NCBI GenBank assembly: GCA_018066125.1
Contig: JAGHSA010000061.1
Location: 1 to 50,136, forward strand
DNA length: 50,136 nt
Reading direction: 5' to 3'
Source: Candidatus Cryptobacteroides onthequi
Lineage (GTDB): Bacteria > Bacteroidota > Bacteroidia > Bacteroidales > UBA932
Shown: positions 13,518-15,686 of the stretch, piece after piece
Numbering within the stretch: the stretch's first letter is position 1
Layout of the letters: the number at the start of each line of letters is the position of its first letter
Notes under the pieces: model-generated
Seen by the model: only the letters and a program-made list of their open reading frames with translations
The model's database searches: none
What the model was told of the DNA's origin: nothing
Position numbers and translations under genes: made by a program

Positions 13518-15494
13518 CTAGAGCGGATCCACATCTATCGTGACATGGCCTGTATATTTCATCTCCTTTTCAAAGCGGGATACACAGTCGAGTATGACGG
13601 ACTTCCTGGATGCCAGTCTGCCGTCGCGCCTGAGGATGATGCGTATGGAACGTCTGGTGCCGCAGTCTTCCTTCCATGCCTCAGGTACCACCGGGCCTGT
13701 CACCTGTACAGGTGCCCCAATCCCGGGAACGGGCTTCAGTGATGCGCACATTGCCTCCATGAGCCTTGCGCTCATGAATTCAAGCCTCTTCGGGCTTTCG
13801 TCTCTTATGACGACATCGACGATCCTGGAGAATGGCGGGAAACCGAACATCTCCCTTTCCGGCAGCAGGAGATCATATGCGGATGCTCCTGTTCCGGCCA
13901 TTTCCTGGAATCCTCTGAATACCTGATGGTCTGAGTTTGCGGTCTGGATGATGAACCTGCCGCTCCGTCCTTCATGGATGCACCTGAGTCTGAAGCGGTC
14001 GAAAAGCTGGAGGGCTTTCTCATCTGCACGGAAATCTTCACCTCCAAGGAGAGTGTCGGCCTGTACCAGAGCCACGAGTCCATACTCGCCGAAATCCTCC
14101 AGGCGGGCCTCTTTCATGTTGAATACCGCCGCATCCGGAATCACGGCTGAAGCGTCTGAGATCAGACTGCTCTTGTCGTTCCAGGTAGTAATCACCATGG
14201 ATCTGCCTCCCTCGACGCCTGTCAGATTCACGGCTTCGATGAGCTTTCGCGATATCTGTCCCACCATGCCGCGCTTGCGCCTCTCAGCTGTGGTGTCGAT
14301 CACTTCCACGCTGACTCCCGATCCTGCGCTGCTTCCCGACATGACATGGCCGTATCTCCCGGAGCAGGCGTTATGGAGGCTTTCAAGTGACGGGGTCGCA
14401 GATCCCAGAACGGTTCGGGCATGATGTATGGTTGCAAGCATGACCGCGGTGTCGCGGGCGTTGTATCGGGGAGCAGGGGAGTCCTGCTTGTATGAAGTGT
14501 CCTGTTCTTCGTCTATGATGATGAGGCCGAGTTCCGTGAATGGGAGAAAGAGCGCCATCCTGGTCCCGAAGATCAGATATGCGCTTCCGGTGCGTATGGC
14601 CTCGGCGACTTTTCTCCTGTGTGCCGCGGTGTCTGCTGATCTGCAGCTAAGGATTTTTTCCTCCGCAATGCCGAAGCGTCGTGCATCGGCTTCCATGTCT
14701 CTGGACTGTGCGTTTTCGGGACTCAGGAAAAGGACGCTTCTTCCCTGCGCAAGTGTCCTGGATGCCAATTCGAGGTATATGTCACGGCGCCCGGCCATGT
14801 CTCCGTGCAGCAGGACAGGCCTGCTGCCGTATGCCAGGATGGATGCGGTCTGCGCATCGACTGTCTCGTCAGGAGCAGGGGGGCAGTGTCCCGTGCTGAC
14901 GTCTGTGTCTGCAGTCTCTGACGGGAGGGCGGTTCTCCGGGCATCCTGCACCGCATTCTCGGCTTCGAGTTTCAGCCTCAGCTCTCCGAGCTCTCTTTTC
15001 AGCCTCTCTGTCACTTCTGCCCTGTGCTTTTTTTCGAGGTCGGCTTCCTTGCCGGCAATGCGTTCCTGCAGTCTTGCGATGCGCATCAGCTTCCTGGCCC
15101 TGGCCTCTTCCTCGCGTTTCTTTGCCATGGCATTGCGGCGCTCGGTCATCTCAGCGGCATGTGTCTCGCTCTGGATCTTTCCGGAAGGGTAAGCCCCTTT
15201 ATAGACCTCTCCCAGCGTGCATAGATAGTAGGATGCAATGAACTTCCAGAGTTCGATCTCGCCGGAGGTGATGCGCTCGAGACCTTTCGCAACACCCTCG
15301 ATAGCCTGGATGCGGCTCGGGTCGATTTCAGGTGTGACATCGGTGGCGATGACCACGGCATCGTGGAGGTGTCCGCTGATGCGCACTTTCACGCGGTCGC
15401 CGACGCATATGCCGGGATCATCCGTGCTGTATGTCGGATTCCAGGCGAGCTTCAGCGGCACTACTACCTGTATGTACCTTTTTTCTGCATCCAT
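13518..15494 (-). CDS. priA: Degenerate PriA-like primosomal protein N' (probable ATPase-dead pseudoenzyme)
   Basis: PriA normally restarts stalled forks as a zinc-containing superfamily 2 helicase of about 730-830 aa. This intact 658-aa frame is clearly PriA-derived. It has the N-terminal 3'-DNA-binding region (residues 1-105), LGLIIIDEEQDTSYKQD (motif II region, 323-338), the RYNARDTAVMLA loop, GSATPSLES (motif III, 364-372), ADTLLGGEDFRADEKALQL, and a C-terminal FGFPPFSRIVDVVIRDE domain. Walker A, normally GVTGSGKT, reads GDMAGRRD at 231-238, without the lysine or threonine. DEEH is DEEQ (328-331). The paired zinc cysteines and the GTQM-KG and Q-GRAGR helicase motifs are missing. A charged, probably coiled-coil segment spans about 112-182. 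ATP hydrolysis and unwinding are very unlikely; a structural or DNA-binding role is an inference. Confidence 0.85.
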   Translation of the reverse strand: MDAEKRYIQVVVPLKLAWNPTYSTDDPGICVGDRVKVRISGHLHDAVVIATDVTPEIDPSRIQAIEGVAKGLERITSGEIELWKFIASYYLCTLGEVYKGAYPSGKIQSETHAAEMTERRNAMAKKREEEARARKLMRIARLQERIAGKEADLEKKHRAEVTERLKRELGELRLKLEAENAVQDARRTALPSETADTDVSTGHCPPAPDETVDAQTASILAYGSRPVLLHGDMAGRRDIYLELASRTLAQGRSVLFLSPENAQSRDMEADARRFGIAEEKILSCRSADTAAHRRKVAEAIRTGSAYLIFGTRMALFLPFTELGLIIIDEEQDTSYKQDSPAPRYNARDTAVMLATIHHARTVLGSATPSLESLHNACSGRYGHVMSGSSAGSGVSVEVIDTTAERRKRGMVGQISRKLIEAVNLTGVEGGRSMVITTWNDKSSLISDASAVIPDAAVFNMKEARLEDFGEYGLVALVQADTLLGGEDFRADEKALQLFDRFRLRCIHEGRSGRFIIQTANSDHQVFRGFQEMAGTGASAYDLLLPEREMFGFPPFSRIVDVVIRDESPKRLEFMSARLMEAMCASLKPVPGIGAPVQVTGPVVPEAWKEDCGTRRSIRIILRRDGRLASRKSVILDCVSRFEKEMKYTGHVTIDVDPL

Positions 15495-15605: not shown

Positions 15606-15678
15606 GGTGCTGTAGCTCAGATGGTAGAGCAAAGGACTGAAAATCCTTGTGTCGGCAGTTCGATTCTTCCCAGCACCA
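15606..15678 (+). tRNA. tRNA-Phe (GAA)
   Basis: 73-nt cloverleaf. Acceptor stem GGTGCTG/CAGCACC has discriminator A. The anticodon stem AAGGA/TCCTT encloses loop CTGAAAA with anticodon GAA at 15639-15641. The T arm contains GTTCGATTC. The 3' CCA is not encoded. It has its own promoter and terminator. Confidence 0.97.
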
Positions 15679-15686
15679 CTTCATGA

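Follow-up and report, generated by a model that had tools for sequence, protein, structure and literature searches.

The job of PriA is to find abandoned replication forks, and the locus studied here raises the question of what such a protein is kept for once its motor has been lost. In the window (the whole 50,136-nucleotide stretch analyzed, a contig of Candidatus Cryptobacteroides onthequi), a priA-like gene lies at 13518–15494 on the minus strand, a strand that an earlier note on this DNA had not given. As that note claimed, the frame is intact: it opens with an ATG at 15494 and runs for 658 codons plus a stop, and the PriA models match it in this single frame. A tRNA-Phe gene lies directly upstream (15606–15679, plus strand).

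Judged by its profile matches, the window protein is a PriA relative beyond chance. Its best NCBIfam match was a PriA model (2.7e-70), TIGR00595 matched at 9.1e-56 with 189.5 bits against a cut-off of 230.35, and PF17764, the 3' DNA-binding domain, matched at 6.8e-13; none of the PriA models listed for the protein reached its curated cut-off. Modeling the structure, a check proposed in the earlier note, gave the overall PriA fold, with a pLDDT of 93.6 and a match to fork-bound PriA over 540 residues. Every relative found was less than 50% identical to the window protein, the closest being a canonical copy (L086, 48%).

Read from its N terminus (all features on the minus strand), the protein retains the 3' DNA-binding domain (residues 9–103, 15186–15470), in which P13, W18, P20, Y22, W83, Y89 and Y90 are present in 97–100% of 134 motor-dead copies. 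A charged helical hairpin (residues 104–188, 14931–15185) is placed by the model and the alignment at the position of the winged-helix domain. Walker A is degenerate and reads GDMAGRRD (residues 231–238, 14781–14804), exactly as had been reported, with Arg236 at the position of the lysine in canonical copies. Column conservation marks GTRMALFLP (residues 310–318, 14541–14567), which we take to be motif Ib, as largely retained, and also the motif II remnant with the loop that follows it, IDEEQDTSYKQDSPAPRYNARDTA (residues 327–350, 14445–14516). The K336–R347 stretch is presumably the aromatic-rich loop of lobe 1; E330, P342 and R347 are found in 100% of the dead copies (n = 134) and K336 in 98%. 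Further retained segments are GSATPSLES (residues 364–372, 14379–14405), of which dead copies keep the PSLE part, AERRKRGM (residues 403–410, 14265–14288; E404, K407 and G409 at 99–100%), DFRADEKA (residues 487–494, 14013–14036), FPPFSR of the C-terminal domain (residues 552–557, 13824–13841) and the C-terminal DVDPL (residues 654–658, 13521–13535).

Where canonical relatives have their cysteine-rich zinc module, the window protein passes directly from residue 437 to residue 438 (14181–14186); its row (L006) has an alignment gap there and 0 of 8 cysteines. In motif VI, the canonical QFRGRCGRR type has given way to the remnant RFRLRCIHE (residues 500–508, 13971–13997). The translation contains no CxxC, no GTQM..KG and no QxxGRAGR, and its motif II reads DEEQ. 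Every PriA landmark quoted in the earlier note is present in the translation, and the absence it had described of the eight zinc cysteines and of GTQM-KG and Q-GRAGR held up in the alignment. Set against canonical PriA (E. coli 8fak and 6dcr, and 4nl4), the window protein thus lacks the ATPase motifs and the zinc module and has a helical hairpin at the winged-helix position. Judged by these motifs, the death of its motor is close to certain.

Two points of the earlier note call for revision. DEEQ, listed as a lesion, is also found in PriA copies whose Walker A is intact (for example L037–L041), which rules it out as a defect in itself; because DEEQDTSY was one of the peptides used to seed the contig scan, DEEQ is over-represented in the 31 loci found by it. 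The charged coiled coil had been suggested as a possible new interaction surface, but canonical relatives have a similar charged stretch at the hairpin position, and its presence in several canonical copies of the same genus rules out the coiled coil (residues ~104–188) as a feature of dead copies.

The window genome, a 75-contig draft of 2.96 Mb and 85% completeness, was searched for the second, canonical priA that might accompany such a gene, and no PriA over the cut-off was found. Its other PriA-profile matches were a 732-aa frame on contig C2 and two proteins that exceed the cut-offs of their own families, RecG and Mfd. Across the order, the PriA cut-off was exceeded in 194 of 199 genomes, a set made up of the window's and 198 with a completeness of 95% or more; among the matches listed, the PriA matches start at profile position 1 or 2, the Walker A site. 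Below the cut-off were the window genome, G055, G491, G554 and G553. In G055, G491 and G554, order members that are 95–96% complete, PriA-profile matches were only weak and fell in other helicase-length frames. We abandoned the cut-off as a test for the motor, since 25 of 26 dead copies in a second genus (g77, below) exceed it, as does G018 (L032), dead by motif, once its pieces are summed. Counts over the cut-off therefore do not show an intact motor, and our motif calls rest on aligned sequences.

Within the genus, 400 genomes were surveyed, drawn from a larger group. The PriA model was matched over its cut-off in 205 and the window protein at E values up to 0.001 in 357, so that at least 152 genomes match it with nothing over the cut-off, some of these matches being contig-edge pieces. 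The remaining 43 of the 400 had no match to the window protein; only 5 of these are among the 150 genomes with a completeness of 90% or more and a contamination of 5% or less, and we therefore do not claim complete loss of PriA in the 43.

We aligned 189 PriA loci, almost all of them from this genus: 137 were motor-dead (no Walker lysine and 0 of 8 zinc cysteines), 40 canonical and 12 intermediate, proportions that are not a survey because the loci were chosen towards the dead form. The dead set includes the window gene, L036 (which repeats the L102 sequence), L177 (a contig-edge fragment) and L214 (which has unknown letters); the intermediates include L030, a contig-edge copy with its zinc cysteines; and the canonical set includes the named records L037–L039 and L153, from a contaminated bin. 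At each of the 189 loci PriA homology was confined to one frame (frames longer than 90 aa), and eight of the frames reach a contig or stretch end. Dead copies have a median length of 560 aa, some being only 472–490 aa. Fifteen further loci comprised 5 dead copies, 2 canonical copies, 7 contig-edge pieces and 1 split canonical copy. The last (L279, G366:C13:35800-38800) has Walker A and the zinc pairs but is split over two frames, by either a fresh frameshift or a sequencing error. One genome, G376, holds both a dead copy (L118) and the canonical L153; it is marked as 5% contaminated, which makes a mixed bin likely.

Gene order was compared for 11 dead and 9 canonical loci, in one of which (canonical L236) gene calling had missed the PriA. 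Only dead L232 has clusters c2, c4 and c6, ParA- and ParB-like as judged by eye, which are found beside priA in several canonical loci; dead L225 and L229 share only c1 with canonical neighborhoods. The window gene's lineage is located elsewhere, and its orthology therefore rests on its sequence and on the tree.

If these genes were drifting, their dN/dS should approach 1. We chose 41 non-overlapping close pairs and obtained a whole-gene YN00 value for 28. The 22 dead pairs ranged from 0.043 to 0.214 (median 0.09), far from 1, three pairs with intermediates from 0.114 to 0.163, and three canonical pairs from 0.034 to 0.083; constraint on dead copies is thus strong, if perhaps looser than on canonical copies, for which there are few pairs. 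The earlier note had called for this comparison in close relatives, and the window gene has no relative close enough for it: against its nearest copies it is saturated (NG86 dS about 2.1–2.2, dN 0.57–0.68), so that selection is demonstrated for the clade and for the retained columns and not for a close pair of the window gene. Purifying selection tells us that a function exists, not which one.

The retained columns tell which parts are constrained. Leaving out canonical L034, L039 and L153 and dead L036, L177 and L214, 202 columns were at least 90% conserved in 37 canonical copies; in the dead copies (n = 134), 77 of these remained at 85% or more, 74 had fallen to 40% or less and 51 lay between. 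Most losses fall in Walker A, motifs V and VI, the stretch just before motif V and the cysteine-rich module. Kept columns lie, in the N-terminal part and lobe 1, in the 3' binding domain, GTR..FLP, the K336–R347 loop and PSLE, and further on in E404/K407/G409/G412/S415, DFRxDE, E546–R557 and the terminal VDP, with a mean retention of 96% across dead copies. When the two sets were defined without the window protein, it retained 73 of the 74 columns in the kept set and 15 of the 76 in the lost set. On the evidence of these alignments, then, the nucleotide-binding and arginine-finger motifs and the zinc module are gone, and the 3' domain, the loop, parts of both helicase lobes and the C-terminal domain are under strong purifying selection in the clade. 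With the PriA fold in the model, this bears out the suggestion in the earlier note that selection kept the scaffold while the ATPase was lost.

Did this happen once? Dead and canonical states were fixed by motif before any tree was built. With motif columns removed, the 186-row PriA tree requires three changes of state, and starred branches force three; on a mixture-model tree of 62 rows, five are required, of which two are forced. Support for the deep branches of the PriA tree is weak, with a value of 81 in the 186-row tree for the window protein's clade of 114 rows; in a 40-row tree the window protein belongs to 10 dead rows that form a starred set (99/97). A single dead clade was rejected on the PriA tree with 40 rows, which were picked after the 186-row tree was known (p-AU 0.00295), and on a tree of 30 genomes built from mfd, a gene found on a different contig from the priA-like gene in the window genome (p-AU 2e-7). 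The mfd tree omits four genomes without a full PriA, and its three outgroup genomes were called canonical by model match, not by motif. In it, dead G018 and G027 fall inside the canonical group, apart from G000, and canonical G013 is sister to dead G008 (100/100); the latter placement conflicts with the PriA tree and could reflect extra losses, gene transfer or mixed bins. The two p-AU tests reject one common origin for all dead copies.

A second Bacteroidales genus, g77, extends the pattern. PriA was found in all 26 of its genomes searched, four of them single-contig and 99% complete (L295, L296 and L313–L336). The full-length copies (n = 25, 818–879 aa) lack the Walker A GKT and the canonical-type motif VI arginines. 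All 26 copies, one a contig-edge fragment, keep the eight zinc cysteines. The P.xH.R loop, PSxE, DFR/NFR, PP.xR and the DVDP-type end are mostly kept, and the region from motif II to the loop is as in the window family in most copies. Of the kept columns that the window family shares with the canonical outgroup L039 (n = 59), 43 are conserved at 80% or more in g77, as against 3 of the lost columns that have a residue in the window protein (n = 27). Five close pairs gave dN/dS values of 0.042–0.244 by YN00 or NG86. Both PriA forms are without a motor, but the zinc module is kept in g77 and lost in the window's genus; for this reason, and because the families differ, we take motor loss in g77 to be separate.

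The fate of the zinc module was followed with PF18319, a profile of 27 positions, in 101 genomes, the window's and 100 others with a completeness of at least 95%. It matched in 66, in frames of 646–1133 aa except in G366 with its split gene, and nowhere in the other 35, some of which (such as G021 and G179) yielded no PriA or have it at a contig edge; this pattern gives no sign that the module has moved to another gene. Among controls, Deinobacterium chartae and Thermus composti matched, whereas the window genome did not; the actinobacterial control Corynebacterium glutamicum and Caulobacter had no match either, and the Caulobacter result indicates that so short a profile can miss the module. 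Three intermediates (L115, L209 and L218) have an intact Walker A GKT, no zinc cysteines and partly eroded motifs V and VI. The reverse state, Walker A lost and zinc cysteines kept, was absent from the 189 loci except for the contig-edge L030, whose Walker region is cut off. In the window's genus, therefore, the zinc module was lost first or together with the motor. In E. coli this module is described as the PriB docking site and as framing the single-strand pore (PMC10175261), so that losing it speaks against an E. coli-type primosome assembly and implies either a different assembly surface or a different job.

We consider it probable, from sequence, that the window gene is its genome's priA turned into an ATP-independent restart factor, with fork recognition and loading as its presumed tasks. 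The PriA-like protein would recognize abandoned forks or D-loops by shape and hold the junction; in E. coli PriA, a junction role is described for a lobe-1 loop and for the 3' domain (PMC10175261). On forks whose lagging arm is already single-stranded, the protein would let DciA or some other loader put the replicative helicase in place without unwinding; unwinding, if any, would be left to another enzyme such as RecG. DciA has been reported to load DnaB in Caulobacter (PMC9825169). In 61 genomes, 31 dead (G077 and G288 with intermediate PriA) and 30 taken as canonical, DciA was matched in 60 and RecG exceeded its cut-off in 60, the exceptions (G151 and G189) both belonging to the canonical group. 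A loader and another fork motor are thus at hand in both groups, and neither search revealed a gain in the dead group that would compensate for the lost motor. More broadly, and only tentatively, we propose that PriA in Bacteroidales may have become a pure fork-recognition platform several times over, in the window's genus also without the zinc module, with the retained surfaces of the loop, lobe 2 and C-terminal domain serving as docking sites for a different partner or loader.

Other explanations must be weighed against this platform. An assembly or sequencing error, or a mis-binned contig, has a negligible chance of being right: the genome is a draft, but the same lesions occur in more than 100 separate genomes, and g77, also dead, has its four single-contig genomes. 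Canonical motifs in relatives had been named in the earlier note as a pointer to such error, and canonical copies do exist in the genus, yet more than 100 dead ones there share the lesions, which excludes it. It is highly improbable that the motor or zinc module is encoded separately, or that a canonical PriA lies elsewhere and the window gene is a spare paralogue. The window genome is 85% complete and G376 carries both forms, though in a contaminated bin and with its canonical copy near the tree base; the window genome has no PriA over the cut-off and no PF18319 match, and PF18319 either has no match (35 of 101 genomes) or, G366 aside, matches within the long frames noted above.

That motor-dead PriA is instead a relic on its way to loss is very improbable. 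The shortest dead copies, the split canonical gene of G366 and dead-pair dN/dS values somewhat above those of the three canonical pairs could be read in this way, but a median dN/dS of 0.09, a single homologous frame at each of 189 loci and the 96% retention of kept columns speak for maintenance. Genome, frame, dN/dS and PF18319 tests thus reject or disfavor a pseudogene, a split gene, a hidden canonical copy and an assembly error. An unlikely alternative, with more in its favor, is that the protein has left restart for another job, for example as a structural or regulatory junction binder, with restart done by something else or dispensable. The motor and the E. coli PriB-docking module have both been lost, the latter being the strongest point against the platform, and the 43 genomes without a match may include true losses. 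However, the E. coli protein is described as binding DNA through parts that hold many of the retained columns, g77 keeps largely the same columns, DciA and RecG are present in both groups, and incompleteness can explain the 5 of 150 good genomes without a match.

Actinobacterial PriA is annotated as lacking helicase motifs and is regarded as motorless too. The precedent for the present form is the Deinococcus radiodurans pseudohelicase, whose Walker A and B are degenerate, with Lys to Arg at the Walker lysine, and which in assays had no measurable ATPase and negligible unwinding but kept ssDNA and fork binding, with evidence for a DnaB interaction (Lopper et al. 2015, PMC4504706). The window protein, known from its sequence, shares the degenerate Walker A and the lysine replacement (Arg236) with this type but not the zinc module; motifs V and VI and the whole cysteine-rich module are gone as well. 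Unlike the Deinococcus type, it belongs to a genus with several losses and surviving intermediates. What is new here is the loss of the zinc module, the repeated losses and the intermediates, and we found no report of a motorless PriA in Bacteroidales in the titles and abstract openings of the open-access papers that our literature searches listed. If the broader platform reading is true, restart in this genus would run without the PriA motor and without the surface on which the known E. coli primosome assembles. The genus offers a natural test of which PriA parts are really needed, a series from canonical copies through those with the zinc module lost and Walker A intact to fully motorless ones, and the retained residues are a selection-written list of what PriA needs without DNA unwinding. 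The E. coli primosome-assembly model does not predict that PriA can shed the zinc module and keep its other parts.

In the 114-row clade that contains the window protein, arginine occupies the Walker lysine column in 104 of 113 rows (the repeat L036 left out), and the G231–Y240 stretch has 8 residues in 94 of 114 rows, compared with 11 in 40 of 40 canonical copies. Lys to Arg at this site is the Deinococcus-Thermus state and in E. coli abolishes the ATPase (PMC4504706). In the dead copies, an arginine at the old Walker lysine might sit in the empty phosphate pocket and hold lobe 1 in one shape. In a separate 29-row clade, the column has lysine in 14 rows and arginine in 11.
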